Below are positions 1 to 25,886 of a stretch of 64,000 nucleotides of DNA, piece after piece; within the stretch, counting starts at the first letter, position 1, and each line of letters starts with the position of its first letter. A program made the position numbers and the translations under genes. The notes beneath the pieces are model-generated. The model was given only the letters and a program-made list of their open reading frames with translations, ran no database searches and had not been told where the DNA came from. The stretch is taken from contig NZ_CP017718.1 in the NCBI RefSeq assembly GCF_001854405.1, positions 2,542,001 to 2,606,000 on the forward strand. Direction: 5' to 3'. Source of the stretch: Hyphomonas sp. Mor2. Its GTDB lineage: Bacteria > Pseudomonadota > Alphaproteobacteria > Caulobacterales > Hyphomonadaceae.

Positions 1-1930
1 CGCCCGCCTTACAGGCCGCCACATATTCCCCCATACTGTGACCGATAAAGGCGTCGGGCTCGAGCCCCCACGACTCGTACAAGGTCGTCAGCGCATAAGT
101 CGTCGTGAACAAGGCTGGCAAGGTCAGTGAAGGTTGTTCCAGGGTGCGGGTCGCCGCATCCACCTGATCAGCCGGCGGATACATTAGTGGCTTGAGGTCG
201 CGTCCAAGTTTCGGCGTGATAATCGCCAGGCACGCCTCGACAGCGTCGCGATAGACCTCGTCCTGCTCATACAGCTCGCGGCCCATACCCGCATATTGGG
301 CGCCGCCGCCCGGGAACATGAAGACTGTTTTTGGTCGATCCGCACTGCTCTCAAGCGTCGCAGACATCTTGTCTGACGGGTCCCGCAGCCGCGCCACGGC
401 GTGCGCCAGATCATCCGCGACGATGGCCCGGCGATGCGGCATGGGTCGCCGTCCCAGCGCCAGCGTGTAGGCCGCATCCGCCAGATCCACATCCGGATTC
501 GCTTCAAGGTGATCGGCGAGATTCGCCGAAGCACGAGCGAGCGCGTCCTTTGTCTTGGCCGACAAGACAAGCAACTGATCTTGCCGGGCATCCTCGCCTG
601 GCAATGCAGCGGGTGCCTCTTCAAGGATCACATGGCAATTGGTGCCGCCGGCGCCGAGCGCGGTGATCCCACAACGCAGCGGTCCTTCACCGGTCCAGTC
701 CTGCAGCGACTGATTCACATAGAAGGGGCTTTGCTCCAGATCCATGGCCGGGTTGGGTGATTCAAAGCCGAGACTGGGCGGTAACTGGCGGTGTTTGAGC
801 GCCATGATGGCCTTGATCAGGGATGCGGCCGCAGCCGTCTCGCCCAAGTGTCCAATATTCGATTTGACCGAACCAATGCCGCAATAGCCGGTTTTGTCCG
901 TATGCTGACCATAGGCTTCGTTCAGCGCCTCCACCTCAATCGGATCACCGACCAGCGTGCCGGTGCCGTGAGTCTCAATATAAGTGACGCTTTCACCCGG
1001 GACGTTCGCTGCCTTCAGCGCATCCGCGATCACATTTGCCTGACCATCGACGCCTGGCGCGAGATAGCCAACTTTCAATGCGCCGTCATTGTTGATGGCG
1101 GAGCCTTTGACGACGGCATGGATCGTGTCGCCATCATCCAGCGCATCATCAAGGCGTTTGACGATCAGCGCTCCTGCGCCGCTGCCAAACACGGTGCCGG
1201 CGCTCTTGGCATCAAATGGGCGGCAATGACCATCTGGCGACAGGATTTCGCCATCGCGATACATATAACCCTGGCCTTGCGGGAACAGAATCGTCGCGCC
1301 GCCTATCAGGGCCAGATCGCACTCGCCCTGACGCAGGCTTTGAGCGGCCATATGCAGCGCAACCAGCGCCGAAGAACACGCGGTCTGGACGTTCATGCTC
1401 GGTCCGCGCAAGTCCATTTCATAGGACACGCGCGTGGCCAGGAAGTTCATATCATTACCGGTATGACGGACGAGGAAATCGCCCATCGAGTCCATGATCT
1501 CCGGATGCGTTCGAACATTCTGGACATAATAGTCCGGTGCACCTGCGGTCGCGAACACCCCGACCTTTCCGTCTTCCGGCAGAGCTGTGTAACCGGCATT
1601 CTCGAATGCGGCCCAGGCGATCTCGAGAAACACCCGATGCGCGGGATCCATGACCGAGGCTTCGCGCGGATTGAAGCCAAAAAAGCTCGCATCGAACTTG
1701 TCGACATCGGTCAAGAGCGGGCAGACTTTGACATAGTCGGGATGGTTGAGATCAGCTTCGCTGACTCCCGCTGCGCGCAAGGCCTCATCATCCAGGGGCA
1801 AGATGGATTCGACGCCATCGCGGACATTGGTCCAGAACGTCTCGACATCCGGCGCACCGGGAAAGCGCGCGGCCATGCCGATAATGGCAATATCGGTCGA
1901 ACCGAGTGGAAGGGCGCCGGTATCTGCCAT
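1..1930 (-). CDS. Type I polyketide synthase, N-terminal part (KS-AT), cut by window edge
   Basis: The frame is open from the ATG at 1930 to the left edge, giving about 643 residues and no stop. A ketosynthase domain fills roughly residues 12-440. It shows the catalytic Cys in TACSSALVAL (about residue 182) and the two His in ETHGTGT and KSNIGH. A KS-AT linker follows, then an acyltransferase starting near residue 540 (FMFPGGGAQYAGMG) with the active-site Ser in GHSMGEY near residue 630. Such modules condense and load malonyl-type extender units in polyketide assembly. The ATG directly abuts the TAG of the upstream NRPS gene, so the two are co-transcribed and probably translationally coupled. 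This suggests a hybrid NRPS-PKS line in which the PKS extends the amino acid loaded upstream. Later domains and the release step lie outside the window. Confidence 0.95.
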   Translation of the reverse strand, partial: MADTGALPLGSTDIAIIGMAARFPGAPDVETFWTNVRDGVESILPLDDEALRAAGVSEADLNHPDYVKVCPLLTDVDKFDASFFGFNPREASVMDPAHRVFLEIAWAAFENAGYTALPEDGKVGVFATAGAPDYYVQNVRTHPEIMDSMGDFLVRHTGNDMNFLATRVSYEMDLRGPSMNVQTACSSALVALHMAAQSLRQGECDLALIGGATILFPQGQGYMYRDGEILSPDGHCRPFDAKSAGTVFGSGAGALIVKRLDDALDDGDTIHAVVKGSAINNDGALKVGYLAPGVDGQANVIADALKAANVPGESVTYIETHGTGTLVGDPIEVEALNEAYGQHTDKTGYCGIGSVKSNIGHLGETAAAASLIKAIMALKHRQLPPSLGFESPNPAMDLEQSPFYVNQSLQDWTGEGPLRCGITALGAGGTNCHVILEEAPAALPGEDARQDQLLVLSAKTKDALARASANLADHLEANPDVDLADAAYTLALGRRPMPHRRAIVADDLAHAVARLRDPSDKMSATLESSADRPKTVFMFPGGGAQYAGMGRELYEQDEVYRDAVEACLAIITPKLGRDLKPLMYPPADQVDAATRTLEQPSLTLPALFTTTYALTTLYESWGLEPDAFIGHSMGEYVAACKAG

Positions 1931-4900
1931 CTACTCTACTTGTTCCCGTCGCTTTGCCCGGCGCTTGGCCGCGGCTTCTTCGCGTCTGTTTGGTTTCCTG
2001 GCGGTTTCCACCGGTTTCGTTGCAGGACCTGAAGTCTCTTCGCCAAGATAAGCGGCGAGCGCCTCCACCGTTGGATACCGGAACATCGAGACCAGGGATA
2101 CACGTCGCCCCAGCGCCTTGGACAGGCGTTGATTGGCCTGCGCCGTCATGATCGAGTTGGCGCCAATGTCGAAAATATTGTCGCTTCGTCCGACCTGGGC
2201 GAGTCCGAGCAGCTCCATCCAGATCCCTGCAATTGTCGTCTCGAGCGCATTCGATGGCGGGACGTACGCCGTCTGCTCGGGCTCAGCAATTGCTGTTGGC
2301 GCTGGCAGCGCATTGCGGTCAATTTTGCCATTCGGGGTCAGTGGAAAGGCGTCCATTGCGACAAACGCGGACGGGATCATGTAATCCGGTAAATGCTCAC
2401 GCAAATGCGCACGCAACTGGTCGGCAAGCTGGCTTTGACCTCCGGCCTGCGCCGCGGGTTGGTTGGCATAAGCGCGAGCGGTTTTCAGCGATGGCATGTC
2501 GACATTCGGAGCAACACGTTTTTCAACTTGCGACGTGTGGCACAGCACCACATCGAAAGCCGAGGGATCGGCACGATTGAAACGCATCTCTGCAACCTGA
2601 TAATCGGAATGCAGGCCAAAAAGGGAATCCGGGTCCACGCCGGACTCTCTCTCATGCTCAAGCAGGCCCCGCAGGTCGGCAGCGCTAGTGCACGCTCTGT
2701 CATCCAAGACCGCACGCGCTGAATAGATCGGTAACAGACGCGCATTGTTTAGCCCTTGGAGGAGAATGACAGGCGCGCCTTCGGCCAGCAGTGTTTCGAC
2801 ATCCGCCAATGTCTCTGCGGTCTGCGGCGCGGGCAATTCCAGCACTTCCACCGCCTCGGACCCGACGTGCAGGACGACATCATATCGGTAATCCGTCATC
2901 TCATTCGCGTGGGTGCCGCGCTTCAGTGTGACGGTCAGGCCCTGGAGACGTGGAACATCGCGCAACAGCGCGTGGAAGAAGTCTTCACCCAGCAACAGTT
3001 CGCTTTCGCGCTGCAAGCGTTTCGCGATCCGGCTGTTCAGCGCCGCAGCATCCAGATGCGCGGGTGCCTGGTGCAGTTCCACCGCTGTGTGGAAGGCGGT
3101 CAATTGTTCGAGGCTGCGCACATCGCCAATGAAAATCTGGCCGCCATCAGCCACCAGGTCCGCGGCGCGCGTCAGGACATCAACAAGATAGTCCGCGTTC
3201 GGAAAATACTGCGCCACCGAGTTGATCACCACCGTGTCGAAGCGGCCGGCCTCAAACTGGCCGATTGCATCGGCTGACATTTTCCGCAGCGCCACCTTGC
3301 TCTGCTCGGCCGGTGTCAGTTCTTCGCCAATCCGCTCCAATGCATTCGCTGAGACGTCGATGCCGGTATAGTGCTCAACCTGATCGAGGACCGAGAACAG
3401 GACCATGCCTGTGCCACAGCCAATCTCGAGCACCTTGCGCGGGTCGAGATCCAGGATCGTGCGTTGCGTGGCGTCCCGCCATTCCCGCATCTGAATTTCA
3501 GGGATCGGCGCTCCCGTATAGCTGTCATTCCAGCCGGAGAAATTGAAACGCGCCTCGCGATCATCATCGCTTTGCAGATAGGCCGCATCCCAAAGACCCT
3601 GCCAGTGATCGACCAGATCCACATCACCTTCCTGGCCTTGCGACGAGGCGTAATAAGCGACCAGTTGCGACACGCCATTTTCCGTATGCGCCGCGACCAC
3701 GCTTTGCCAGATGTCCGGATGACGGCTGAGCTGCGTTTCGATCTCGCCAAGTTCGATCCGGTAGCCATTCAGTTTGACCTGTTGATCCATCCGGCCAAGA
3801 TATTCAAGCTCACCAGACGCCTTGTATCGGGCCAGGTCGCCGGTGCGGTAGAGGCGCTCTCCCGGGGCATAAGGGTCATCAACAAACCGTTCGGCGGTCA
3901 GATCATCGCGGCCGAGATACCCCGGTACGACGCCATCTCCGCCAATGCATAACTCACCCGACTCGCCCAAGCCGACCATGTTTCCTCCCGCATCCAGCAG
4001 ACGGATGGTCGTGTTGGCGATCGGGCGCCCAATCGTAATCGGCTCGCCTTTGATGACGGGTGCGGTGGTCGACCAGATCGTCGTTTCGGTGGGGCCGTAC
4101 ATGTTGGTGAACTGACCGGTCAGCACCTCGTGCAGCTGATCGGCAAGATCGCTTGGCAAGGCTTCGCCGCCCAGCATCAAATGCTTCAGCGATCCGAACC
4201 GAGCGAGGATGTCCGGATCATCAATCAACATGCGGGCCATGGACGGCGTGCACTGCAAGTGGGTGATCTCGTGTGTCTTGAATGTCTCACCAACAGTGAC
4301 GAAGGCGTTTTCATCCGCGCTGGCGCGACCAGAATGGGCCAATTCTCTGAGACGGTTAAGGTGTGGAAGGCTGTCCAGCACGAGGTCGGACTCGATGCCG
4401 AAATCAACCAGGCAGGCAATCTCATTAACGCCAATCGCTTTTAGTTTCTCAACCATGCCGAGCGCATGTTCCGGCGCCCCGAACAGACCCGCCGTTTCGA
4501 AATAGCGGTCAAAGGCGTGATCCATCAGCGCCGCAATGTCGTCATCAGTGAATTGCGATGTATCGAGCTGCGCTTCGGCCCCGTCCAGAGAGGGACGCTT
4601 GAAGGCCGGGAACATCCAGGGGGCAACTTTGACCAGATCGAACGAGCTCTGCAGATAGTTGCAGAACGGCTCTCGCGCGATCTCTCGCGCCTGTTCGGTA
4701 TTCTCGCAAACATAGGTGTGGAGCATCAGCGAGACCTGGCCTGGTCCGTCAAACCCTGCGTCAGCCCGGGCCTCGCGATAGGCCGCCAGTTTGGTGCGCA
4801 GGTCGTCCAGATCCTGGCCCAGCATATTGGTCAGAATGTTGGCCCCCAGACGACCGGCGGCTTTGAATGTTTCGATATTGCCCGCAGAGGCGATCCAGAT

Positions 4901-7774
4901 TGGCGGACGCTCCTGAATGGGACGTGGAAAGGTCGAGACCTTGATCCTCTCGCCTTCGCCATTGGCCACTTCAACTTCTTCGCCCGCCCAGAGTTTGAAG
5001 ACTGTGTCGATGCTCTCAACCATGATCTCGCGGCGGCGTTCATAGTTTTCAGGCATCAAAGCAAAATCATTGGCATGCCAGCCGGATGCGAATGAGAGGC
5101 CCACACGGCCATTCGACAATTGGTCGATCATCGACCAGTCTTCAGCCACACGGATCGGATTGTGCATGGGCAGAACGACGCTGCCCGCGCGCAAGGCGAC
5201 ATTCTCAGTGATCGTCGCCAGCGCCGCCGTCGTTACCGCTGGGTTCGGGAAGATACCGCCGAATTCGTGAAAGTGCCGCTCCGGTGTCCAGACGGATTGG
5301 AAGCCATTGGCATCGGCAAACTTCGCGCCTTCGAGAAGCACCTTGTAGGTCTCACCCGGACGCGCATCGCCTTGCGAGGAAGAGAAATAGAACAGACCGA
5401 AATCCATCGGCGTGTCTGAAACTTCAATGCGCGCCGCGTCGGCAAGGCTACTCTGATCGGTTTCGCCCTGAATGATCACCTCAAAGCCGCGCGCCAGTGT
5501 CCAGAAGATCTCCAGAACCGAGATGTCGAAACTGACGCTTGTAACCGCCAGCCAAACGCCCGGTTCAGTGCCGATCACATCGTCCATTCCGGCAAAGAAA
5601 TTCGCGACATTGCGATGCGCGACCTTGACCCCTTTCGGGCGCCCGGTCGAACCGGACGTGAAGATAATATAGGCCAGATGGTCTGAATTCACTGCGACGT
5701 GCGGCGCGCTCGCGTCCGCGTCCTGGGCGATCGCGTTTAGCGTCACCATCTCGGCGTTTGCGGCCGGTAGCCTGCCCGCCAGTCCGGTCTCGGTCAGCAG
5801 CACTTTCGCCTGTGAGTCTTCCAGCATGATGGAGAGACGATCCTGCGGATAGGATGGATCCATCGGCACATAGGCTGCACCCGCCTTCATCACGCCGAGC
5901 AATGCGGCGACCAGCTCGGTAGAGCGTTTGACGCAGACCGCGACAAAGTCGCCGGGCACAACGCCCTTACTGATCAGTGTGTTGGCAATCTGATTGGCGC
6001 GCAGATCAAGCGCGCGATAGGTCAGCGAATGGCCCTGAAATTCTACGGCCGTGGCATCGGGTGTTCGGTCGACCTGCGCCTCGAACAGCTGATGCACGCA
6101 CCGATCCTTGTCGTAAGACTTGACCGATCCGCGGGAGCGCTCGAGCAGCTGACGCTTTTCGTCTTCTGGCAGCAGATTGAGCTGCGAAATCGGCGACTCG
6201 GGTTGCTCCCCTGCTTCGACAAGTAGTGTCTCAACGCGCGCGGCGAGCGCGAGAACCGCGGCTTCCGAAATCGCGTTCCGGTCATAGCTGAACGTCGCGA
6301 CGTCCGACGTGTCGGTAACATGCAGAGTCAGGGCTGAGTCTGGTAACAGATCTGGCGCCCCGTCCAGTTGAATTCCGATCGGCAGCGTCAACACCGTCGA
6401 CGGGAGGTCACGCAACCGCTCGTAGCGCGCCCGCATGTCGCGGGCAAAGGTTCCGCGTTTTTCGATTAGCTCCAGCGTGCTTCCAACTTGCCGGCGCACG
6501 GCGTCAAACGGCGCGGCCTGATCCACATCGACCCGCAAAGGCACCGAGGTCGCATAAAACGCATCGGCTCCTTCCGGCAGCGACGTGGATAAGGCGAGAT
6601 CAAATACTGAAGCCTCTCCCGCGCACGCGATGTAGACGGATAGCGCGGCCAGATAGTCCTGCGCACCATGCCGGCGATTGATCGAGAACTGGCCTTTTAC
6701 CGGTGTCTGTGAAGCTTCCCTCAGCTGCGCCAGCACCGGCGCCGATTGCTCAGCGACCCGCCGCACCCAGAAACGCTCATGCTTTGTCTGGGCGGTGTCA
6801 AAATCTGCGAGTTGTGTCTGCGTCGCGGTCAAAGACGAAAGCGTTCGATTGACCGCGCCACTGAGTTCGCTCGTATCCAGAGGCCGTCCATCGAGACGGG
6901 TCAAACCGCTCAAGCGCACCCCACCATCCGTGGCCGCGACCGTAAGCGTGTTCTCGTGGGCATTCAGCACCCGACCCGGCTCGGACGCTGCCTCGGAAGG
7001 AACCAGGTCGGCATGATCGACGAGGTAAAAGGTCTCACCAATTTGCAGCTTGGGCAGGCACATCCAATTGTCTTCGCGACCAAGGTGCAGGCCGCGCACA
7101 AACCGGCTGATCGCGACAGCCGATTGGTTAAAATCGATCACACCCACTCCAGGCCGATCAGAGCGCAGATGGAATCCACCTTGATCGCTCTCGGCTTTCG
7201 GCGCCATCGCCTCGCCAGACAGGGTCCCGGCTTCAATCTCGATCAAAAGATCCGCAAACGACTCGCGGCAGGCATTGGCGCATTTCACGCCCAGAGAGAA
7301 AGCGGTGTCTTCAGCGGAGATCCCAAACGTCTTCTGCAGCAGAATATCACCGCCATCGACCTCTGCGGTCATCGCGTGCCAGGTCACGCCATGACTGTTC
7401 GCCCCCTCAATGATCGCCCAAGAGGTCGCGTTAAAGCCGGCATAGTCGGGCAATGCCGAGTCGTGATAATTGATCGCACACTGCTTTGGCAGGGCCAGCA
7501 ACTCATCTGGCAGAATGGCATGGTTGATGATCGAGAACAGGTAATCGAACGCGACACCTGAAAGCGCTTGGACGAGATCCTGCTTCGCGGAAACAAGACG
7601 AATATCGGTGCTCGACAACCAGGTGGCGACGTCCGGACAGTCGCTGATGACGGACTCGACGGCATGCCCGGCTGCAAGCCATTGCCGCACGCAATCGATG
7701 AGCACCTGCGTGCTCCCGATAAAGACGGCCTTGTTCTGCATCCCTGACATTTTGTCGTTTACCCTACGCAGCAT
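1931..7774 (-). CDS. NRPS module: formyltransferase / half-C / A domain interrupted by luciferase-like monooxygenase / methyltransferase / PCP
   Basis: This 1947-residue single-module synthetase has an unusual order. Residues about 15-190 are a methionyl-tRNA formyltransferase-like domain with the catalytic Asn, His and Asp in NYHDSALPDY and EVDGGDIL, followed by a formyltransferase C-terminal-like part to about 295. Residues about 310-510 resemble only the second half of a condensation domain; no HHxxxDG is seen. The adenylation domain begins near 540, with A3 FTSGSTGRPKG near 705 and A4 FDISVLEIFW near 747. It is then split by a luciferase-like FMN monooxygenase (about 790-1125, of the kind called MupA/Atu3671 family). 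It resumes with NMYGPTET near 1225 and A8 LNGYRIELGEIE near 1335. A SAM methyltransferase (VLEIGCGTGM near 1448) precedes A10 NGKIDRNALP near 1815, and the carrier-protein Ser is in GANSIM near 1870. A basic tail ends the protein. Starts at 7750 or 7741 are also possible. The substrate is not predicted. Confidence 0.93.
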   Translation of the reverse strand: MLRRVNDKMSGMQNKAVFIGSTQVLIDCVRQWLAAGHAVESVISDCPDVATWLSSTDIRLVSAKQDLVQALSGVAFDYLFSIINHAILPDELLALPKQCAINYHDSALPDYAGFNATSWAIIEGANSHGVTWHAMTAEVDGGDILLQKTFGISAEDTAFSLGVKCANACRESFADLLIEIEAGTLSGEAMAPKAESDQGGFHLRSDRPGVGVIDFNQSAVAISRFVRGLHLGREDNWMCLPKLQIGETFYLVDHADLVPSEAASEPGRVLNAHENTLTVAATDGGVRLSGLTRLDGRPLDTSELSGAVNRTLSSLTATQTQLADFDTAQTKHERFWVRRVAEQSAPVLAQLREASQTPVKGQFSINRRHGAQDYLAALSVYIACAGEASVFDLALSTSLPEGADAFYATSVPLRVDVDQAAPFDAVRRQVGSTLELIEKRGTFARDMRARYERLRDLPSTVLTLPIGIQLDGAPDLLPDSALTLHVTDTSDVATFSYDRNAISEAAVLALAARVETLLVEAGEQPESPISQLNLLPEDEKRQLLERSRGSVKSYDKDRCVHQLFEAQVDRTPDATAVEFQGHSLTYRALDLRANQIANTLISKGVVPGDFVAVCVKRSTELVAALLGVMKAGAAYVPMDPSYPQDRLSIMLEDSQAKVLLTETGLAGRLPAANAEMVTLNAIAQDADASAPHVAVNSDHLAYIIFTSGSTGRPKGVKVAHRNVANFFAGMDDVIGTEPGVWLAVTSVSFDISVLEIFWTLARGFEVIIQGETDQSSLADAARIEVSDTPMDFGLFYFSSSQGDARPGETYKVLLEGAKFADANGFQSVWTPERHFHEFGGIFPNPAVTTAALATITENVALRAGSVVLPMHNPIRVAEDWSMIDQLSNGRVGLSFASGWHANDFALMPENYERRREIMVESIDTVFKLWAGEEVEVANGEGERIKVSTFPRPIQERPPIWIASAGNIETFKAAGRLGANILTNMLGQDLDDLRTKLAAYREARADAGFDGPGQVSLMLHTYVCENTEQAREIAREPFCNYLQSSFDLVKVAPWMFPAFKRPSLDGAEAQLDTSQFTDDDIAALMDHAFDRYFETAGLFGAPEHALGMVEKLKAIGVNEIACLVDFGIESDLVLDSLPHLNRLRELAHSGRASADENAFVTVGETFKTHEITHLQCTPSMARMLIDDPDILARFGSLKHLMLGGEALPSDLADQLHEVLTGQFTNMYGPTETTIWSTTAPVIKGEPITIGRPIANTTIRLLDAGGNMVGLGESGELCIGGDGVVPGYLGRDDLTAERFVDDPYAPGERLYRTGDLARYKASGELEYLGRMDQQVKLNGYRIELGEIETQLSRHPDIWQSVVAAHTENGVSQLVAYYASSQGQEGDVDLVDHWQGLWDAAYLQSDDDREARFNFSGWNDSYTGAPIPEIQMREWRDATQRTILDLDPRKVLEIGCGTGMVLFSVLDQVEHYTGIDVSANALERIGEELTPAEQSKVALRKMSADAIGQFEAGRFDTVVINSVAQYFPNADYLVDVLTRAADLVADGGQIFIGDVRSLEQLTAFHTAVELHQAPAHLDAAALNSRIAKRLQRESELLLGEDFFHALLRDVPRLQGLTVTLKRGTHANEMTDYRYDVVLHVGSEAVEVLELPAPQTAETLADVETLLAEGAPVILLQGLNNARLLPIYSARAVLDDRACTSAADLRGLLEHERESGVDPDSLFGLHSDYQVAEMRFNRADPSAFDVVLCHTSQVEKRVAPNVDMPSLKTARAYANQPAAQAGGQSQLADQLRAHLREHLPDYMIPSAFVAMDAFPLTPNGKIDRNALPAPTAIAEPEQTAYVPPSNALETTIAGIWMELLGLAQVGRSDNIFDIGANSIMTAQANQRLSKALGRRVSLVSMFRYPTVEALAAYLGEETSGPATKPVETARKPNRREEAAAKRRAKRREQVE

Positions 7775-7851
7775 TCAGTTTCGCTCTCAACATTCCCGGA
7801 TCGCCCGCAGACTCTGGTGTTTCGAAGCAAAATTCGTTCCAACTGATACCT

Positions 7852-8643
7852 CTAGTTCCAATTTTTCGCGTGGTAGGTGATTTTGGGAGTTCTCCCACAA
7901 GAATTCACAGCCAAGGCGAACCACAGATCAGGCTTGATCTGGCGGGCCTTAAAGTCCCAATTTTCTACGGCTTCAGGCGCTCCCGCGACCCTCAAAACCG
8001 CCGGTTTCGCACCGAATGCCGACATGTCGAAATCTTCGAGCGGAAACGACACGCCCAAGCCCAAAGCCTTGATGAACGCCTCCTTCAGGGTCCAGTAACG
8101 AAAGAAAGCCTGATGGCGATCTGACGGCGCGACGCGTGCGAGATCAGCGCGTTCGCGCGGCGAGAGCGGCCAATCCATTTCTTCGCGATCGAGATGTTGA
8201 ATTGATTCAATATCAACACCCACCGACGCATCGCGGCTCACGGCCAGTACGGTCCAGGACCCATCATGGCTGACGCTGAAAGACAGGTCTGATCCGACCA
8301 GGCATGGCCGACCAAAGTCGTTTTCCTCAAACTCCAGCGCGCGAGGGTCGCTACCCGTTATGACGGCCAGATGTTCGCGGACCTGGGCGCGCGATATCGC
8401 CCAGTGCCTGCCTTTTTCAGGAGAAAAATGCCGGTCCCGACGCGCCAGTTCCATCTCGTTCAAGGATTTGAACAAAACCGCCGATCGATCAGTCTCATCT
8501 GCATTGTTCCAAAACCAGAGATCGACGCTCACTTCACTTTCGATCTCAGCGCTCACCCTGTTCCGCGCGTCTTCGCCCATATCGCGGAACGCAGGCGAAA
8601 AAGCGCGGGACTCGTCGGCCGATGGATTCTGGTTCTTCAACAT
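7852..8643 (-). CDS. 4'-phosphopantetheinyl transferase, Sfp/AcpT type
   Basis: A protein of 263 residues that should transfer phosphopantetheine from CoA to the carrier-protein serine of the neighbouring synthetases. The metal- and CoA-binding signatures of the family are present: GVDIE in the middle and WTLKEAFIKALGLG towards the C-terminus. The size fits the Sfp class, not the smaller AcpS class. A good ribosome site (GAGGGGG about 8 bases upstream) supports the ATG at 8643. The gene lies 12 bp after the glycosyltransferase and 77 bp before the NRPS on the same strand, so it is most likely a dedicated activator within the assembly-line operon. Confidence 0.93.
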   Translation of the reverse strand: MLKNQNPSADESRAFSPAFRDMGEDARNRVSAEIESEVSVDLWFWNNADETDRSAVLFKSLNEMELARRDRHFSPEKGRHWAISRAQVREHLAVITGSDPRALEFEENDFGRPCLVGSDLSFSVSHDGSWTVLAVSRDASVGVDIESIQHLDREEMDWPLSPRERADLARVAPSDRHQAFFRYWTLKEAFIKALGLGVSFPLEDFDMSAFGAKPAVLRVAGAPEAVENWDFKARQIKPDLWFALAVNSCGRTPKITYHAKNWN

Positions 8644-8655
8644 CGAACGTCCCCC

Positions 8656-9792
8656 TCACCGCGTCATCATCATGAAGCGAACAAGCTGAACCAGATCACT
8701 TATTCTGCCGCCCATTGCGGCTCGTTTTGCACGCCATCGCACCGACCGCCCCAATTCCCCGATGATCTTACGCCCAAGCGGCGACGACGCCTTCAGATCC
8801 TTGACTTTCTGCTGGACCTCCTCGGACTCCAGCAGCGGCGCACAGCCAAGACCATAGCTGGTCGACATCCGGATTCGTTTGATTTCATAATCGCTCAACG
8901 GCTCGTTCGCAGAGGGATCAATATTTGCCCAGGTCTCCAGCGCTTCGTCCCACAAGACGTGGCGACCCAGCACCGATCCTCGACGGATCAGCGCGGCCCT
9001 GGAGCGTTTTGTCTTCTGCTTCGGGTCGTTCCAGATATCGGTGGGCAAGACCTCTTCGTCGGGCAATTCATCGAGCAATGGCTTGATGATCTGGCGGTGA
9101 TACTTGATCCACTTTCGGTTGGCATCCTTCATCGCAAATCGCTCGCCGCCATACCCGCGCGTCCCCTGGTGTTCGCGATGCAGAAACACGACGTGCGGCA
9201 CCACGCGTCCGGCCCCGTGGCGGGCGAGTCGCAGCAACATATGATAGTCCTGAGACCGCTTCAGGGTCTCGTCAAATGCGCCAATCCGCTCATAAAAAGC
9301 GCGCCGGACGATCAGGCCCGGTTGGAAGATATGACAGCCATCCAGCGCATCCGAGAATATCTCGTCAGGACGGGACGCTTTGGAGTAACCCGGCTCCTTC
9401 CGCACGATTTCTCCTGACGCCTCGTCGACGAAAAAATCCTCATGCAGACCAGCACAGAAATCGAGCTCTGGATCCGCCTCCAGCTCCTGCATTAGGCTTT
9501 CGCAGGCATCGGGCAGAACCAGATCATCATCATCACAGATCCAGACAAAGTCCCCCTCAATCATCGTCATGGCCAGGTTGAGTGCGGCTGATTTCCCACC
9601 ATTTTCGGTCCGGTGATAGCGAACCTTTTCGCCAAACGACGCGATGCGTGCTGCCGTATCATCCGTGGAGCCATCATCGATGATGAGGATTTCATCCGGC
9701 GCGCGCGTTTGCGCGAGCAGGCTGTCGAGCGTATCCGTAATCAGGTCCGCGCGGTTAAAAGTGGGCAGGATGACACTCACACGACTGTCCAT
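8656..9792 (-). CDS. Family 2 glycosyltransferase heading the NRPS/PKS operon
   Basis: A GT-A fold transferase of about 378 residues. The N-terminus reads SVILPTFNRADLI, followed by IIDDGSTDDT and the metal-binding acidic run WICDDDDLVLPDA. Family members transfer sugars from nucleotide donors in the cytoplasm, usually at the inner membrane. The ATG at 9792 is chosen because the fold begins immediately after it and GGGGAG precedes it; an in-frame start at 9846 would add a run unlike the family. It is the first gene of the minus-strand operon. It may decorate the NRPS-PKS product, or it may belong to the polysaccharide locus that begins on the other side of the divergent gap. Acceptor and donor are unknown. 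Confidence 0.88.
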   Translation of the reverse strand: MDSRVSVILPTFNRADLITDTLDSLLAQTRAPDEILIIDDGSTDDTAARIASFGEKVRYHRTENGGKSAALNLAMTMIEGDFVWICDDDDLVLPDACESLMQELEADPELDFCAGLHEDFFVDEASGEIVRKEPGYSKASRPDEIFSDALDGCHIFQPGLIVRRAFYERIGAFDETLKRSQDYHMLLRLARHGAGRVVPHVVFLHREHQGTRGYGGERFAMKDANRKWIKYHRQIIKPLLDELPDEEVLPTDIWNDPKQKTKRSRAALIRRGSVLGRHVLWDEALETWANIDPSANEPLSDYEIKRIRMSTSYGLGCAPLLESEEVQQKVKDLKASSPLGRKIIGELGRSVRWRAKRAAMGGRISDLVQLVRFMMMTR

Positions 9793-10065
9793 CGGTCTCC
9801 CCATCACGCAATCTACATCCCACACTTCAGGTTCTTCGACCAACACTCAGTCCATGACCGAAAACGAGGCGCCCCACGTATCCCTCAGGCGCGCTCGCTC
9901 TTAAACGCAATTTATATGCCACTACACCCATACAGTATATGCAATTGTTTTTTGGCACTTTCATGACCTGAGCAGTCAGTCTGTCCAGGCCTTGAGCAGA
10001 CCTCGTTCTGGCACGTGACTTGCTCCGAGCACACTTGCTTTCGCGCGTCTGGACAGCCACAAAAA
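9793..10065. promoter_or_regulatory. Divergent intergenic region between the NRPS/PKS operon and the polysaccharide locus
   Basis: About 270 bp separates two divergently read glycosyltransferase genes, so it must hold promoters for both directions. An AT-rich stretch lies around 9905-9950. I see no convincing paired -35/-10 boxes, operator palindrome or RNA gene. Confidence 0.4.
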
Positions 10066-11232: not shown

Positions 11233-12093
11233 ATGGCGCAATCCCCTCCCCTTTTCATTGTCGGCGCGCCGCGCTCTGGCAATACTCTGACGCGGCGCGT
11301 TTTGATGGCATCCGACCAGATCTACATTCCGCCCGAGACCTATGTCCTGGGCGAAATTCTGACTCGCTGGCGCAAGTGGAATGGGCTGACCTGGCGTGAG
11401 CGGGTCTGGTTGTTTTGCGCCTATTTTGATCGTCACAAGAAATTCGGTGATTTCGATCTAGAGAGCCTTTCACCGTTCGCCGCGGAGGCGATCGATTTCA
11501 ACAAGGCGCAGCAGAGCCTGCATCATCTCCTAGATCGGTTCTACGCATTCATGGCCCGCGAACATGGCTTTACCGAGCAGCGCTGGGGAGACAAGACTCC
11601 CTGGAACACGGTGCACCTCAAGGACATCGTCAAGGCCTATCCTGATGCCTATTTTCTGTATCTGAAGCGCGATGGCCGCGATGTGGTTGCCTCTCAGATA
11701 AAATCCGACATGCGGGATTTCGAGGCTTCAGCGCAACGTTGGATCGATGCAAACACGGCCTGTCGGCGGCATTTGAAACGCGCGCGACGCACGCCGATGG
11801 AAGTCGCTTATGAAGGACTCGTTCGCCGCCCGGAGAAGGTTTTCAGATCGATTTTCGAGTGGGCGGATCTTGAATATGACGTGGACTATCTGACCCGCGT
11901 CCCTGCCCGGATGGGCGACGTTGATCGTCACGAACATCATGCCGCCGTCACGCAGCCCATCACGGCCAGCTCGATCGGAAAATGGCAGCACAGCCTGTCT
12001 GCGGACCAGTTCGAATCTTTGCCACCAGCGTTCGAAGAGATGATGAAACTCCTCGGCTACCCTGAACAGGGTGACGCTGCTACATCCAGTTAG
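11233..12093 (+). CDS. PAPS-dependent sulfotransferase family protein
   Basis: A 286-residue cytoplasmic protein with both cofactor signatures of the sulfotransferase family. The 5'-phosphosulfate loop FIVGAPRSGNT is at residues 8-18, and the 3'-phosphate motif YLKRDGRDVVAS is near residue 142. The family moves sulfate from PAPS to hydroxyl or amino groups. The tight spacing after a glycosyltransferase suggests that a sugar of the exopolysaccharide repeat unit is the acceptor, which would make the polymer sulfated, as is common in marine bacteria. The acceptor itself cannot be read from sequence. Confidence 0.88.
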   Translation: MAQSPPLFIVGAPRSGNTLTRRVLMASDQIYIPPETYVLGEILTRWRKWNGLTWRERVWLFCAYFDRHKKFGDFDLESLSPFAAEAIDFNKAQQSLHHLLDRFYAFMAREHGFTEQRWGDKTPWNTVHLKDIVKAYPDAYFLYLKRDGRDVVASQIKSDMRDFEASAQRWIDANTACRRHLKRARRTPMEVAYEGLVRRPEKVFRSIFEWADLEYDVDYLTRVPARMGDVDRHEHHAAVTQPITASSIGKWQHSLSADQFESLPPAFEEMMKLLGYPEQGDAATSS

Positions 12094-12104: not shown

Positions 12105-13031
12105 CTATTTGGCGGCGATTGTGTCTGGCGCCCCGTAATACTCGGCTTCCTTGACCGAGAAGAAGGCCGCAATGATGCCGCTATGAAACACGGCACGGAT
12201 ATAATGGCGACGGCTGGTGGCTTTCGACCAAAAGGTCAGTGCCGCGAGCCCCATCAGATACGCGACTTTCGCCATAGACGCTGCGAGCTTGAGTAGATTA
12301 CGCACAAGATTGTCTTTGTAGACGATCACTTTTCCGTACGTGATTCCCGATCGGAACTTGTTCTTGACGAGCCAGTCGAGGGAGAGGCGATTATCCGCCA
12401 CCGGTTCATGAACGACCGCTTCCCTGGTCTCATCGATTTTCACGCCGCCCAGGAAGCACTGATAGAAGAATTGGGTATCCTCGCCGCCCGATCGGCCGCG
12501 ATCCTCACTAAAGCGCAGCGGCGCAATCGCCGGATGCTGGCGCTTGAAGAAAGCGTTGCTGGTATGTCCTGTCAGAATGGGCTGCAGGTGGCCGACACTG
12601 ATCGAGTGCAAGTCAATCTCGCGAATCCAGGCCGGCGTGTGGTCGGGGTAAATCGAGATGACAGGGCCGAATGACAGATCGAGATCGTTCTGCATCGCGC
12701 CGTCATAATGATGCTGCAGCCATTGATCGCTGGCGATCTCATCATCGTCAATGAAAGCGATCCATTCGCCGCGGGCATTCTCGACGCAGGCATTTCGCGC
12801 GATCGAAATATTGCGTGCCGGAGCGTGGACGTAAGTCAGTTCAAGGTTGGGAAACCGCGCTGCCGTTTCTTCGACATAAGGCCGCGCGGTTGGCTCGACA
12901 TCATTGTCGACCACGATCACTTCGAAACTGATCTCCGGATCAAGTTTCTGGTGCGCGATCGACTCTATCGTCTCGCACACGGATCTGCGCCGAAACGTGC
13001 ATATGCAGACGCTGATGAGCGGAGATGTCAT
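12105..13031 (-). CDS. Family 2 glycosyltransferase with C-terminal hydrophobic segments
   Basis: A 308-residue GT-A transferase. It starts SVCICTFRRRSVCETIESI and continues with VIVVDNDVEP, then the metal-binding FIDDDEIAS and the base-region GGEDTQFFY. Near the C-terminus, around residues 240-275, a hydrophobic stretch may associate with the membrane. The ATG at 13031 is preferred: the open frame runs upstream to 13205, but the extra 58 residues overlap the neighbouring gene and have no glycosyltransferase character. It lies 16 bp downstream of the GT4-like gene in a minus-strand run that also contains the tyrosine autokinase. The sugar donor is unknown. Confidence 0.87.
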   Translation of the reverse strand: MTSPLISVCICTFRRRSVCETIESIAHQKLDPEISFEVIVVDNDVEPTARPYVEETAARFPNLELTYVHAPARNISIARNACVENARGEWIAFIDDDEIASDQWLQHHYDGAMQNDLDLSFGPVISIYPDHTPAWIREIDLHSISVGHLQPILTGHTSNAFFKRQHPAIAPLRFSEDRGRSGGEDTQFFYQCFLGGVKIDETREAVVHEPVADNRLSLDWLVKNKFRSGITYGKVIVYKDNLVRNLLKLAASMAKVAYLMGLAALTFWSKATSRRHYIRAVFHSGIIAAFFSVKEAEYYGAPDTIAAK

Positions 13032-13047
13032 TGTGCCAGTCCTCGCT

Positions 13048-14241
13048 TCAGGCCTGATCCAGTTGCCCGATCGCGATCGGCGTCTTGGACATTGGCCCCT
13101 TGGCGTCGAGGATCTGATCCAGGATATCTTCCATGAATCCATCTGGCTCAACCAGGGCTGTTTGCGGCATTGATCCGAGCGCCTCGCGACGGGATTGAAT
13201 CGCATCGCGATCAGACATCAATTCACGTAATATGACGATCAAGCTCTCTTCAATTGGTTCGGCAACGACAAATCCGGCTTCGTTGTCCAGCACCCAATTT
13301 GCGGTTTGCGTCTCGGCCGGTGCGATCGGTGGAACGGCAAAATAGCCGCCCTCGTAAATCCGGTTTGGTAACAGCCATTTGGAATTGAGGCCGGCTTCCA
13401 TGAAATCACCGGACCAGACCAGATCAAGCTCACCATAAATACCCGGCAGGTCACCTGGGGCCTTGTACGACCCGAAGAATGAAATGTTGTCGACACGCTC
13501 TATCGTGTCGTGAAAATTCGGCACGCTCCAGAGGTCTGGTTTGCCATGCACTCTGATTTCAATCGCATCGCCAAATGCTTGCGCGGCGCGCACCATCAGA
13601 TCGAGCGTGCGCTGACAGCGCAAAATACCAACCCATCCGAGGCGCAAGGGCCTCGAGGACGCGGGTTGAGGATCGAGTGTTGGACGCCCCACCGAACGGG
13701 CAAAGCTTGACAGCAATCTGTTCTCGATCAGGAAAAACCTGAAGCCATCATCATAATGGCGATCAAAATGCTCTCTTACAAAAGCCGGCGAACTGACAAT
13801 GACACCGCGGCTGCGTTTGAGGAAGGCCGCCTCGAACTTGCGTGCGATCCAGCCGATCAGATCCTTTCGACACAACATGCGGTGGACATCCAGACACTCA
13901 TATACGACGGGCGTACGCAGCCCGGTCAGGCGTTTGGTCAGAAACGCCGTGGCGAGCATATCCAGATTTCGCGCAACGATCAGATCAGACTCGGTCAGGG
14001 CCTGCTTGTGTTTAGCCGCTCGAAAGGCCCCTCGAAAAATACTCCAGATTCGATCGAAATACGCGCCATTCTCGGTCTCGCCGAGCGCAACATTTTCCCA
14101 ATCCGGCTCGGGCCCATCGAGCCGCTTGTTCATGAAGCCGAGAACCTCGACGCCGCATCTCTGGAACGAGTGGACCCGTTTGCGGATGCCTGCGTCTGAC
14201 GAGTCATGCCCAAAATAGGAGATGCGCTTCGTCTTAGCCAT
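13048..14241 (-). CDS. GT4/ExoL-like glycosyltransferase
   Basis: A 397-residue GT-B type protein. The N-terminal half carries ISYFGHDSSDAGIRKRV and DLIVARNLDM. The C-terminal half has LRLGWVGILRCQRTLDLM, DLVWSGDF and the donor-binding NRIYEGGYFAVPPIA. The last pattern resembles succinoglycan ExoL-type transferases, where N-R-x-Y-E stands in for the classical EPxG loop. Its ATG overlaps the end of the tyrosine autokinase gene by 8 bp, a sign of translational coupling. It probably adds one residue of the repeat unit. The specific ExoL assignment is inference. Confidence 0.83.
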   Translation of the reverse strand: MAKTKRISYFGHDSSDAGIRKRVHSFQRCGVEVLGFMNKRLDGPEPDWENVALGETENGAYFDRIWSIFRGAFRAAKHKQALTESDLIVARNLDMLATAFLTKRLTGLRTPVVYECLDVHRMLCRKDLIGWIARKFEAAFLKRSRGVIVSSPAFVREHFDRHYDDGFRFFLIENRLLSSFARSVGRPTLDPQPASSRPLRLGWVGILRCQRTLDLMVRAAQAFGDAIEIRVHGKPDLWSVPNFHDTIERVDNISFFGSYKAPGDLPGIYGELDLVWSGDFMEAGLNSKWLLPNRIYEGGYFAVPPIAPAETQTANWVLDNEAGFVVAEPIEESLIVILRELMSDRDAIQSRREALGSMPQTALVEPDGFMEDILDQILDAKGPMSKTPIAIGQLDQA

Positions 14242-16600
14242 TGTTCAACATGGAACGCAGCTGGGTTGAAGTTTCCTCGTCCTCTCCCGGCACGTTAGGC
14301 TCATTCAGGTTTGCCGCTGGCAGTTTGGTGACCGTCCGATTGCGACGCGGGTTCAGCCAGCGCCAGCGGGATTCGGACGTATAGTATTTTCTGTAAGCAG
14401 AAGACGTCGAGGCCTGTTCGGTGTGGTGACGACGCTTGGTCAGGTCGACCATATTGAGGCCGATACCGAGCACTTCAGCTTTCATGCTCTTGAGCATTTC
14501 CAGGGCGCGGCGCACCGACGATCGACGCGACTTCATCCAGCGGACAATCAGAATGGTCTTGTCCGTTTTGCTGGCAATCACGCCCGCTTCGGCGATCAGC
14601 AGCAACGGCGCCGTATCAATCAGGATCAGATCATATTGCTCTTTGAGCTGCTCCAATAGGGAGTCGAATGCGCGCGTCCCGAACACATCGTACAAGGTTC
14701 GCCCATTCAGGGTCAGCGCCAACAGGTCGAGACCCGTATGTTCTTCACGATAGATGGCATCTTCCAGCTCACACTCACCGGACAGGTATTCGACCAATCC
14801 GGTTTTCGGATTCAGGCCAGCCGAAGCCGTCAGCTGACGGCGGCGGAAGTCGCCATCGATGACCAGCGTCCTGTCACCCGACAGAGCCGACATGCGGCCG
14901 AGGCTCAAGGTCAGGCTGGTCTTGCCTTCGTCGGGCAGAGACGAGGCAATGGTAACCGTTTTGGTTTGGTCTTCCATGGCTGAAATGGCAATCGATGCGC
15001 GAATATAGCGCATACTTTCCGCATAGGCGGATAACGGGTCCTGAACCAGGAAGTCCGCTGGAACCTTGCTGCCGAATCCCAGGAATTTCAGCGACTTGAT
15101 CAGCGGCACGGCGCCGAGACTCGGGAAGCCGAACTTGCGTTCAATCTCTTCGACAGAGCGGATCTGATTGTTGAAGATCTCGAGAACGATTGCGAGCCCT
15201 GCACCCGTCATGGCCCCCAGCATAAGTCCGACAATCAGGTTCAATCTGGTGCGCGGCGATGACGGTCCCCATGGGATCGCGGCCGGCGACAAAATGCGTG
15301 AGTCGGGTTGTACCAGCTCATCCTGTTCACGTGTTTGCGTGAAACGCTGCTTGAATTCTTCGAGAATCAGGCGGCTAGCATCGGCCTCGCGCTGCAGCTC
15401 GTTCAATCGGACTTGCGACCGGTTGTTGCGGGCCAGAGTGGCGCGCGACTGACTGATGCGGCGATCTAGTGAGGCGATCTGGTCATTCGCGACCGCAAGC
15501 TCGACCCGCAAATTGTCGATGATACGGCTCATCTCGGCGTTGATCTGAGCTTCGTAGTCTGCGATTTCGCTGTCCACAGCAATCATGCGCGGGTGTTCGG
15601 GCCCGAGCGATGTGGACAATTCGGCCTTGCGACGCTGGGCGTCCGACAACTGGTTCTTGAGCGAATTGACGACCGGGGAGCTGAGCACTTCACCAATCGC
15701 ATCGGCGCCGGCACCGGAATTCAACTGGCGACGCATCCCGTCATAGCGGGCGCGAATACGCGCAACCTCCGCTTCTTGGTTCACTTTCTGGCTTTGCAAT
15801 TGCGCGATACTGGCTTCGGTCAAAGTCGTACCCTGCGCCGCCAACAGACCGGATTCTGTCCGGAAATTCTCAACGATGAGCTCCTTGGCGGTCACTTCCG
15901 ATTCGAGAACCTCGACGCGTTCAGCCAGGAAACGAGTGGCTCGGGCGGTCGCTTCGAGCTTCACTTCCAATTGCTCAATCCCGTATTGCTCCGCCACGGC
16001 ATTCGCCAGACGGGCTGCCATTTCCGGCGACTTACTGGTGACCCGGATCTGAATGAGATAGGTTGCGCCGACACGGCTGACCCGCACCATGCCGCCCAGA
16101 CGACCTACGGCGCGCTTCTTCAACTGGTCTTCCGTCGGAGGTGGAGGCGCAGGCTCTGAAGAGTCTTCCCCCCCACTCAAAAGACGATCCAGGAAACCCG
16201 GCTCTTCTGGCGGCAGAAGCAGCGGATTAAACTCCGGCTCGTTGATCAGGTTTTCCTTCTCGACCACTTTTGACAAAAGCGCCTGCGATCCGATCACGCG
16301 CACCTCTGTATCCAGCACGGACGTGCTGAGGGACGTGCCACTGAGAACGTCTCCCAAGTCGATGACATTGGTCCGCTGGCTATCGACAATGACGGTCGAT
16401 GTGGCCGTGTAGAGCGGCGTTTGCGAGAAGGTGTAATTGGCAATCGCTGCGAACACCAAAACGGCGGTGATTGAGATCAGCATGAACCGGCGCAGCGCCA
16501 GTTCGACGATCGATTTCACATCCCGAAAGATGTTGTCACTCATCGAGTCTGAATGCTCTTTGAAGTCCGGAGCAAGCTCGAAGCTAATCTTCTGTGACAT
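14234..16600 (-). CDS. Polysaccharide co-polymerase / bacterial tyrosine autokinase (Wzc/ExoP type)
   Basis: A 788-residue inner-membrane protein controlling chain length and export. The first membrane segment is near residues 38-60 and starts the Wzz domain. A long periplasmic coiled-coil part follows, and a second membrane segment lies near 445-465 after the proline-rich ILSPAAIPWGPSSPRTRL. The cytoplasmic BY-kinase has Walker A SLPDEGKTSL, Walker A' LVIDGDFRRR and Walker B LILIDTAPLL. Near the C-terminus, AYRKYYTSESRW supplies a short tyrosine cluster for autophosphorylation. Kinase and Wzz are fused, as in proteobacterial Wzc. It leads a minus-strand group with two glycosyltransferases. 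No LMW tyrosine phosphatase of the Wzb kind is seen, but a PPP-type phosphatase is encoded at 24346. Confidence 0.94.
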   Translation of the reverse strand: MSQKISFELAPDFKEHSDSMSDNIFRDVKSIVELALRRFMLISITAVLVFAAIANYTFSQTPLYTATSTVIVDSQRTNVIDLGDVLSGTSLSTSVLDTEVRVIGSQALLSKVVEKENLINEPEFNPLLLPPEEPGFLDRLLSGGEDSSEPAPPPPTEDQLKKRAVGRLGGMVRVSRVGATYLIQIRVTSKSPEMAARLANAVAEQYGIEQLEVKLEATARATRFLAERVEVLESEVTAKELIVENFRTESGLLAAQGTTLTEASIAQLQSQKVNQEAEVARIRARYDGMRRQLNSGAGADAIGEVLSSPVVNSLKNQLSDAQRRKAELSTSLGPEHPRMIAVDSEIADYEAQINAEMSRIIDNLRVELAVANDQIASLDRRISQSRATLARNNRSQVRLNELQREADASRLILEEFKQRFTQTREQDELVQPDSRILSPAAIPWGPSSPRTRLNLIVGLMLGAMTGAGLAIVLEIFNNQIRSVEEIERKFGFPSLGAVPLIKSLKFLGFGSKVPADFLVQDPLSAYAESMRYIRASIAISAMEDQTKTVTIASSLPDEGKTSLTLSLGRMSALSGDRTLVIDGDFRRRQLTASAGLNPKTGLVEYLSGECELEDAIYREEHTGLDLLALTLNGRTLYDVFGTRAFDSLLEQLKEQYDLILIDTAPLLLIAEAGVIASKTDKTILIVRWMKSRRSSVRRALEMLKSMKAEVLGIGLNMVDLTKRRHHTEQASTSSAYRKYYTSESRWRWLNPRRNRTVTKLPAANLNEPNVPGEDEETSTQLRSMLNNG

Positions 16601-19923: not shown

Positions 19924-20176
19924 TCACGGGTCGTTTCCTTCTGGCCGTAGCAGCCATGCCTTTCAAGCATGTTTATCCGACCGATCCATTCCGGCCCATT
20001 CATCCCTTATGCCAGACGGCCAAATCCGGTCTTTCTGGTCGCGAGAAAGTCCCGGATTCTCCGCCACCACAGGGCGTTCAGCAATGGCACTGAGTTTGCA
20101 GTCGACTTTTAATCATCTAAGGTGAAAGCCGTGATTGTGCTATTCGTGTGCAGTTTGTGTAGAGTGAGGCGTGACG
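19924..20176. promoter_or_regulatory. Divergent promoter region between glycosyltransferase group and GH16 gene
   Basis: Some 250 bp separates the minus-strand glycosyltransferases from the GH16 gene, so it should drive both. TTGCAG near 20094 is a possible -35 for the plus strand, but I see no good -10 at the right distance and no clear palindrome. Confidence 0.35.
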
Positions 20177-25290: not shown

Positions 25291-25886
25291 TGACACGAGA
25301 GTTACGGGGCGTTCTGCAATTGGTTGTTAGCGTGCTTTTCCTGGGCCTAGCGACCGCATGCCAGACGGCTCCGACCGTGTCCGCGCCGACTCAAGGCACG
25401 TCTGATCCTTCCAGTTCGGTTTATGATGGCGAATACCGCCTCGGGCCTGCCGATCAGCTTCGGGTCACGGTCTTCGGCCACGATGACCTCTCGAACCAGT
25501 ATACGGTTGCCAGCAATGGGACGATTTCATTTCCGCTGATTGGCGACATAGAAGCCGCAGGCCTGACCGTGGCTGAATTCCAACGGTTGACCGAAGACCG
25601 TCTCAGCCAGGGATATTTGAAATCGCCACGAGTCACGGCCGAGATCATGACGTTCCGCCCATTCTATATCCTGGGCGAAGTGAGCCGCGCAGGCGAATAT
25701 CCATACACAAACCGCCTGACAGTCCTAAACGCGATTGCGACCGCGGGAGGGTTCAGCCATCGCGCCAATCGCCGGGTCGTCGCGATCAAGGGGTTTGATG
25801 ATATCGAGGAGCGCCGGGTTGAACTGACGCCCACGACGTTCGTGCAGCCAGGCGATACGATCCGCGTCCTGGAACGCTTTTTCTAG
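25290..25886 (+). CDS. Polysaccharide export lipoprotein, Wza/GumB/ExoF type (short form)
   Basis: A 198-residue protein with a signal peptide ending in the lipobox LATAC (Cys near residue 24). The poly_export domain follows: YRLGPADQLRVTVFGHDDL, GTISFPLIGDIEAAGLT and the SLBB-like part FYILGEVSRAGEYPYTNRL. It should form the periplasmic/outer-membrane export channel with the tyrosine autokinase. It lacks the extra SLBB repeat and C-terminal helix of E. coli Wza, so an outer-membrane partner is needed. The beta-barrel protein encoded 78 bp downstream is the obvious candidate. It is translationally coupled to the phosphatase. Confidence 0.92.
   Translation: MTRELRGVLQLVVSVLFLGLATACQTAPTVSAPTQGTSDPSSSVYDGEYRLGPADQLRVTVFGHDDLSNQYTVASNGTISFPLIGDIEAAGLTVAEFQRLTEDRLSQGYLKSPRVTAEIMTFRPFYILGEVSRAGEYPYTNRLTVLNAIATAGGFSHRANRRVVAIKGFDDIEERRVELTPTTFVQPGDTIRVLERFF

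Follow-up and report, generated by a model that had tools for sequence, protein, structure and literature searches.

The window analysed here, a 64,000-nucleotide stretch of the Hyphomonas sp. Mor2 genome, is a Wzx/Wzy exopolysaccharide locus. We tentatively propose that three of its genes, encoding a phosphopantetheinyl transferase (PPTase), an NRPS led by a formyltransferase (F) domain and a PKS, form a portable, optional cassette that makes an acyl substituent for the surface polysaccharide. In a fuller version, put forward with added caution, this widespread alphaproteobacterial NRPS–PKS line would make no free product, but an N-formylated, hydroxylated acyl ornament built from glycine and acetate for a Wzx/Wzy polysaccharide, the line being a module that such a locus may carry or lack. 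The F-led NRPS is not an isolated curiosity, nor does it form an antibiotic cluster of the usual kind; at the level of sequence, the constant NRPS–PKS pairing, the strong link to polysaccharide loci, the domain order and the catalytic residues are established.

The minus-strand quartet GT2, PPTase, NRPS and PKS occupies positions 1–9846 of the window. The GT2 glycosyltransferase ORF spans 8656–9846 (the start at 9792 given in the earlier note is an in-frame ATG within it), the Sfp-type PPTase (263 aa, identified as an ORF and by domain search, and part of the cassette) 7852–8643 and the NRPS (1947 aa) 1931–7774, while the PKS ORF (2–1930) is cut by the window edge after the first 643 of its 2082 residues, that is, the KS and the start of the AT. 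Gaps of 12, 77 and 0 nt separate the four ORFs, the PKS ATG directly adjoining the NRPS stop, so that the tight four-gene array described in the earlier note is borne out by the ORF coordinates. Following the sequence to the left of the window, a check proposed earlier, completes the PKS in the host genome (L011:13682-19930, 2082 aa) as KS-AT-KR-DH-ACP-TE, namely one extension module without an enoyl reductase domain and with a TE at its end. Of the 16 PKSs compared, 14 have an atypical DH motif, and a cysteine replaces the TE serine in the L026 PKS.

The domain order of the NRPS is F, condensation remnant, A domain with an inserted luciferase-like monooxygenase (LLM), methyltransferase (MT) and carrier protein (PCP), the coordinates in this paragraph being on the minus strand. 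The F domain (residues 1–303, 6866–7774; Pfam Formyl_trans_N 63–168 and Formyl_trans_C 211–303) is of the FMT/ArnA type with a C-terminal subdomain. Its Asn/His/Asp residues were already said to be retained, and the triad N102/H104/D140 is indeed intact in 42 of the 43 F-led NRPSs compared, that of the window included; the F domain of G399 lacks the triad histidine. No complete condensation domain precedes the A domain in the F-led NRPS; a rear-lobe remnant without HHxxxDG is present instead (residues ~310–560, 6095–6847). The possibility that the segment linking F to A is a new domain was considered and rejected, because a profile finds the ends of condensation domains (at E up to 1 it matches 22 chains, of which 21 are NRPSs and one is due to chance) and because an F-less cousin in the alphaproteobacterium G738 carries a full Pfam condensation domain where the window NRPS has F and the remnant. 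An AF2 model of residues 1–560 (mean pLDDT 73, six sequences) supports the F domain; all 50 Foldseek matches listed are formyltransferase or 10-formyltetrahydrofolate hydrolase folds, and are uninformative on the remnant. The A domain is split into a front part (AMP-binding residues 564–774, 5453–6085) and a rear part (1160–1360, 3695–4297) by the LLM (792–1143, 4346–5401), which matches TIGR04020 with 484 bits, well above the cut-off of 244. The MT insert (1388–1681 by its match to 5wmm, 2732–3613; Pfam core 1449–1546) lies between the A core and the AMP-binding_C subdomain (1780–1817, 2324–2437), and is followed by the PCP (1847–1910, 2045–2236) with its serine present.

The A-domain code, spread over both A parts plus K1817, is DILCMGMIWK. 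The codes of all 43 F-led NRPSs are one to three residues off DILQLGMIWK, the code given for four A domains that take glycine and carry a monooxygenase insert (PMC12283262, in part). By this resemblance glycine is the most likely substrate. Among solved structures the MT is best matched by 5wmm (E 1.5e-48, ~294 residues matched), which we take to be TioS, an interrupted A domain with backbone N-methylation; the matched chain has neither F nor LLM, and the TioS product is a free depsipeptide. The LLM is nearest to that of PuwE, whose oxygenase is proposed to assist in making a 2-hydroxy acyl chain (PMC4219810, in part). The A domain would load glycine onto the PCP, where the MT would N-methylate it (in the MT-containing sub-clade only), the F domain would formylate its nitrogen with formyltetrahydrofolate as donor and the LLM would hydroxylate its alpha carbon. 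The likely intermediate, N-formyl-N-methyl-alpha-hydroxyglycyl-PCP, would be extended by a single malonyl-derived C2 unit on the one PKS module, with the keto group reduced and perhaps dehydrated, and the TE would release or transfer a small formamido-hydroxy acid. The NRPS and PKS together probably yield a small acid from formyl-capped glycine; we infer from sequence its substrate, the product, and when and where each tailoring reaction takes place. As a prediction, the starter of the earlier note, an N-formylated, oxidised and possibly methylated amino acid to which a polyketide unit is added, is supported, methylation applying to the MT sub-clade and glycine being the most likely amino acid.

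Formylglycine loaders and glycine modules with an LLM in the A domain are already known, each separately. CongA (conglobatin) and OzmO (oxazolomycin), like the window NRPS, place F before an A domain for glycine (the predicted substrate in the window) and a PCP, followed by PKS extension (PMC4504003, in part), and LgrA (linear gramicidin) likewise starts with F-A-PCP; the F domains of these initiation modules and of the window NRPS are related. Compared with all three, the window NRPS adds the A-inserted LLM, the MT (in its sub-clade) and the condensation remnant between F and A, and its line has a single PKS module with a TE and a polysaccharide setting. The loading module had been called unusual, which is half right: formylglycine loaders have precedent in CongA and OzmO and the family is common in one order. 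No description of the combination of F and LLM-in-A in a polysaccharide setting was found in open-licence papers. No CongE/OzmP-type cyclodehydratase was recognised among the Pfam-scanned neighbours of the cassette. In the G738 cousin, A-LLM-MT-PCP is 46% identical to the window NRPS and the PKS, with the same domain order, 44% identical to that of the window; no polysaccharide hallmark lies in its 36 kb, which carry two acyltransferase-3 genes instead. In the fabrubactin and anachelin siderophore systems, FbnL/FbnM (Dmaq) genes accompany the LLM line (PMC12971057, in part). The earlier statement that no characterised product is known agrees with our searches of open-licence papers, in which no paper pairing an NRPS/PKS with Wzx was found by title or start of abstract, nor any on Rhodobacteraceae NRPS–PKS plasmids or on Atu3671. 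Papers on roseobacter NRPS/PKS and exopolysaccharide, and a single match for exopolysaccharide, NRPS and formyl combined (PMC6780248), led no further.

The window and its left flank carry Wzx, Wza, Wzy_C, a Wzc-like protein (by a weak match only) and an initiating sugar transferase. Within the window these are the Wzc-like protein (14234–16600, minus strand; weak match to CpsD/BcsQ-like proteins), the Wza-type export protein (Poly_export, 25290–25886, plus strand), the Wzy_C/O-antigen ligase family protein (27363–28619, minus strand) and the initiating sugar transferase (Bac_transf, 29096–29911, minus strand); a sulfotransferase of the locus lies at 11233–12093 (plus strand). The export genes are shared with other Wzx/Wzy-dependent exopolysaccharide loci, from which this one differs by the NRPS–PKS cassette in its middle. 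The GT2 had been taken as part of the assembly line, which is not borne out: in three relatives that lack the NRPS cassette (G024, G028 and G035) its ortholog directly adjoins a Wzx flippase, so that it more plausibly belongs to the exopolysaccharide locus, and a role as glycosyltransferase of the product was rejected. In 28 of 30 other loci, a GT2 of a different family sits between the PKS and the NRPS. The occurrence of Wzx without the NRPS in the same three relatives also lowers the case for Wzx as obligate exporter of the product. In G013, the cassette occurs together with a lone Wzx-family protein that may serve it as exporter.

Of the 244 genomes of one order, 100 carry an F-led NRPS; the order is taken to be Rhodobacterales because its members group in the tree with Ruegeria, Paracoccus and Parasedimentitalea. 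In Phaeobacter inhibens, PKS Inhi_1972 and NRPS Inhi_1974 (PMC4062626) are a candidate pair that may belong to the family. The family PKS adjoins the NRPS in all 17 of the first loci and lies within 2 kb of it in all 30 further loci, and a PPTase lies within 1 kb in 28 of the 30. These 30 loci were hand-picked: 28 belong to the order that includes G082, each with a different genus label, and the other two are G677 and G714. Their genes are mechanical ORFs and, because antisense ORFs hid some genes in GC-rich loci, counting was by tblastn; to the tree and code counts the 30 loci contribute the 26 NRPSs recovered as ORFs of more than 1400 aa. At least two classes of polysaccharide-export hallmark lie near the F-led NRPS in 27 of the 30 loci (tblastn), compared with none of ten control stretches (one offset in each of ten of these genomes) and none of nine other NRPS loci, with a bias in favour of the test loci, as the hallmark reference proteins were taken from the locus in the window and from the surroundings of four cassettes. 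Four named reference genes of L043 were left out as unrecovered. No hallmark class was found near the cassette in G399, G714, G861 and L027, and one class only in G340, G310, G950 and G013; contig ends cut short the loci of G989, G949, G981, G166, L026 and L027. In G013, the cassette and Wzx lie outside a polysaccharide locus that is 28 kb away on the same contig, which lowers its value as a plain counter-example.

We may wonder whether the product is instead a free secreted small metabolite, of an oxazole or hydroxy-acid type, say, that acts as a signal, as a metal ligand or as an antimetabolite, its position then being due to common regulation or to common mobile hot spots. We consider this a doubtful reading, albeit one of some weight: the PKS ends in a TE, G399, G714 and L027 carry the NRPS–PKS pair without a nearby hallmark, the G013 cassette moves with a possible exporter, and conglobatin and oxazolomycin, made with formylglycine loaders, are free products (PMC4504003, in part). 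It fits less well with the contrast between 27 of 30 loci and none of the controls having at least two hallmark classes, with a GT2 gene inside the PKS–GT2–NRPS unit in 28 of 30 loci and with the occurrence of Wzx also without the NRPS.

The same linkage data, one assembly line per locus and the co-movement of Wzx in G013 would also suit a product that primes the polysaccharide or anchors it by its reducing end, rather than a repeating substituent. RkpA, a PKS/FAS-like protein, has a proposed lipid-anchor role in the rhizobial K antigen, and the cassette would by analogy work likewise. This is improbable, since a single extension module without enoyl reductase suggests an acid that is small and polar and would make a poor lipid anchor, and related loci do without the cassette. 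A further alternative concerns the starter itself: in glycine A domains with a nearly identical code, the monooxygenase, inserted as in the window NRPS, is described as cleaving the glycine backbone to give terminal amides (PMC12283262, in part), and hydroxylation of N-formylglycine by the LLM might similarly cleave the C–N bond, leaving glyoxylyl-PCP with the nitrogen lost. We regard this as very improbable, the window module being first in its line, with a PKS and TE next, and not last, and the N-methyltransferase-like insert of the MT sub-clade being pointless if the nitrogen is lost.

The acid may be an exopolysaccharide ornament rather than a free antibiotic-like compound, because related copies usually lie within exopolysaccharide gene sets. 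In most carriers examined, the host genome included, it would most likely end up as an acyl group on the polysaccharide that the surrounding Wzx/Wzy locus produces. We infer this attachment; no transferase for it was identified, the link is not universal (some loci show zero or one hallmark class) and the TE fits the release of a free acid. Rhodobacterales are abundant marine surface colonisers, and about two fifths of the sampled genomes of this inferred order carry an F-led NRPS for which no product was found in open-licence papers. If the pair decorates exopolysaccharide, it would join assembly-line natural products and surface glycans, usually separate fields, explain orphan NRPS–PKS calls in marine genomes and offer a compact two-protein system in which to study an LLM in a starter module.

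The four minus-strand genes seen by the earlier note at the left end of the window (GT2, PPTase, NRPS and PKS) are indeed present there as ORFs, in a host genome that forms a single contig of 3.63 Mb. The NRPS (1931-7774, minus strand; 1947 residues) starts with a formyltransferase (F) domain, followed by a remnant of a condensation rear lobe, an adenylation (A) domain interrupted by a luciferase-like monooxygenase (LLM), a methyltransferase (MT) insert, the A C-terminal subdomain and a PCP. Its closest named relatives (73-77% identity) are labelled Henriciella, Hyphomonas and Hyphomonadaceae. The start of the PKS directly abuts the NRPS stop, and extension to the left of the window, as the note had proposed, recovered the full 2082-residue enzyme (13682-19930 of L011, a stretch reaching beyond the window), organized as KS-AT-KR-DH-ACP-TE. 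DH usually precedes KR in PKSs; the order is reversed here. Among 16 PKSs compared, the KS Cys/His/His, AT Ser, KR Ser/Tyr, DH His/Asp and ACP Ser residues are kept in all and the TE serine in 15 (a cysteine in L026, from an uncultured bacterium); 14, including the window's, have an additional residue following the DH histidine relative to genomes G340 and G399.

The window also encodes Wza, an outer-membrane porin, Wzy_C, an initiating sugar transferase, a Wzc-like protein (weak match) and several ORFs read as putative GT2s, while two Wzx-family flippases and a GT8 lie to its left. Together, these regions are a Wzx/Wzy exopolysaccharide locus. The presence in it of a sulfotransferase (11233-12093) and a GH16 glycosidase (20171-21037) suggests a polymer that is probably sulfated and served by a cleaving enzyme of its own. 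Also left of the window, L011:3762-8245 holds consecutive genes for a Gfo/Idh dehydrogenase, two DegT aminotransferases and an epimerase, which fit the supply of amino-sugar nucleotides; an acyl group would find its natural acceptor in such a sugar. Two minus-strand ORFs of the window, 12105-13205 and 13048-14241, share 158 nt (13048-13205); one of the two starts probably lies further downstream.

The PKS adjoins the NRPS in all 17 loci of a first set (by tblastn only for the Planctomycetota contig L027), with a GT2 gene between the two in the Rhodobacterales loci. In 30 further loci, a PKS of the family is always found within 2 kb of the NRPS, the PPTase within 1 kb in 28, and a GT2 of one family between PKS and NRPS in 28, namely all those from the order of genome G082 (inferred Rhodobacterales). 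Seven polysaccharide-export hallmark classes were scored by tblastn around these 30 loci, with reference proteins drawn from the window's own locus and from the surroundings of four cassettes, which biases the count: at least one class was found in 28, at least two in 27 and at least three in 22, and none of the seven at the loci of G861 and G714. The same count for 12 first-set loci gave at least one class in ten and at least two in seven, with none for G399 and L027. Control stretches 200 kb away in ten of the same genomes had at least one class in two cases and two classes in none, and at least two classes were found at none of nine loci of other NRPSs retrieved with the same query (the G166 locus spans 22 kb only). 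A family of proteins of about 300 residues matching no Pfam entry, with an 837-residue relative, occurs in 14 of the 30 stretches around the cassette (for example L046:19590-20486 and L055:11203-14693) and is a candidate transferase acting on the product.

The F-led NRPS was found in six of 61 relatives, all from the window's genus (six of its 29 genomes) and split across two contigs in G011; two further genomes matched only through other NRPSs. Surveys of the class and the phylum, whose genome draws overlap, gave matches in 14 of 385 and 21 of 398 genomes, respectively, of which seven and 14 (own included in each) align through the F domain, the latter all from the same class. A threshold of E <= 1e-120 retrieves 103 of the 244 genomes from the order of G082, with alignments starting at residue 18 or earlier in 98, at 71-72 in two and only from 391 on in three. 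L026 and L027 also carry relatives. Three groups make up the NRPS tree of 43 rows. One joins the order of G082 to Aminobacter and G677; its members lack MT and are polysaccharide-linked, G861 excepted. A second, formed by G340, G399 and G714, also lacks MT and shows no more than one hallmark class. The third is the MT group (Henriciella-type, L026 and L027; support 100).

The Wzx that adjoins the PKS in the window's genome, and the GT2 that adjoins the PPTase, both occur in all six NRPS-bearing relatives. At E <= 1e-60, Wzx occurs in 11 and GT2 in 12 of the 61 genomes, and in G024, G028 and G035, none of which gave an NRPS match, the two directly adjoin each other. The window's GT2, previously counted with the assembly line, is thus better placed among the genes of the polysaccharide locus. 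In G035, the pair is also surrounded by the sulfotransferase gene and by Wza, Wzc and Wzy; in G028, only one further gene of the polysaccharide set was found within 36 kb; and the G024 contig measures 3.3 kb. These arrangements are not a clean empty site, because gene orientation differs. In G013, the cassette and Wzx adjoin cbb3-oxidase accessory genes. A polysaccharide locus of the same type lies 28 kb away, and a search of it with the two Wzx proteins of the window's genome found no second Wzx; a further member of the Wzx family sits on a separate contig, and the GT2 match of G013 has one stop.

Residues 310-560 of the NRPS, between F and A, have no Pfam match, and a profile of them built from six relatives matches condensation-domain ends (best McyB, E 2.4e-4; NRPS chains account for 21 of the 22 matches at E <= 1). 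None of the 43 F-led NRPSs has the HHxxxDG motif within its first 600 residues. A cousin in G738 (L067:283-5862 and L206:7773-14213) shares A-LLM-MT-PCP (46% identity) and the same kind of PKS (44%), but begins with a full Pfam condensation domain instead of F; this cousin, too, gave no exact HHxxxDG match. Its locus has no polysaccharide hallmark, and two acyltransferase-3 genes lie nearby. The G738 layout is likely to be ancestral, and in the simplest history F would have displaced a condensation domain's front lobe. Another A-LLM-MT NRPS, on a Burkholderia glumae plasmid (L044:13522-21777; 43% over 525-1635), neighbours a thioester reductase, a fatty acyl-AMP ligase, two acyl-CoA dehydrogenases, a P450 and a transporter; the unit is reused there in an unrelated setting.

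The F domain comprises an entire FMT/ArnA-type enzyme and is closer in sequence to the sugar N-formyltransferase WbkC (1e-17) than to LgrA (3e-8). Its Asn/His/Asp triad, already noticed as kept, is intact in 42 of the 43 F-led NRPSs, a Phe replacing the His in G399. The MT matches 5wmm (E 1.5e-48), which we take to be TioS, an interrupted A domain that methylates the backbone nitrogen. The ten specificity residues of the A domain, located by motif, read D I L C M G M I W K. Of the 43 codes, 12 depart from DILQLGMIWK at one residue, 30 at two and one at three; PMC12283262 assigns DILQLGMIWK to four A domains for glycine that carry a monooxygenase insert, and glycine is therefore our best guess for the substrate. 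The LLM (TIGR04020) is nearest to PuwE, whose oxygenase is proposed, with an aminotransferase, to build a 3-amino-2-hydroxy acyl chain (PMC4219810), so alpha-hydroxylation is predicted. CongA and OzmO, described in PMC4504003 as formylglycine loaders extended by a PKS, are the closest working model. These assignments of substrate and chemistry are, as a whole, predictions from sequence.

Among the open-licence papers searched, we found no description of an F-led, LLM-containing NRPS with a PKS in polysaccharide loci. PKS Inhi_1972 and NRPS Inhi_1974 of Phaeobacter inhibens, named in PMC4062626, may be the same pair. A free metabolite remains a serious rival, possible rather than probable, because the polysaccharide link is not universal, no attaching transferase has been identified and the TE suits a free acid. 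On the other side, the linkage is strong, is seen in two of the three tree groups and does not extend to other NRPS loci; the NRPS-PKS product is therefore probably made for the polysaccharide, in the simplest case as an acyl substituent.
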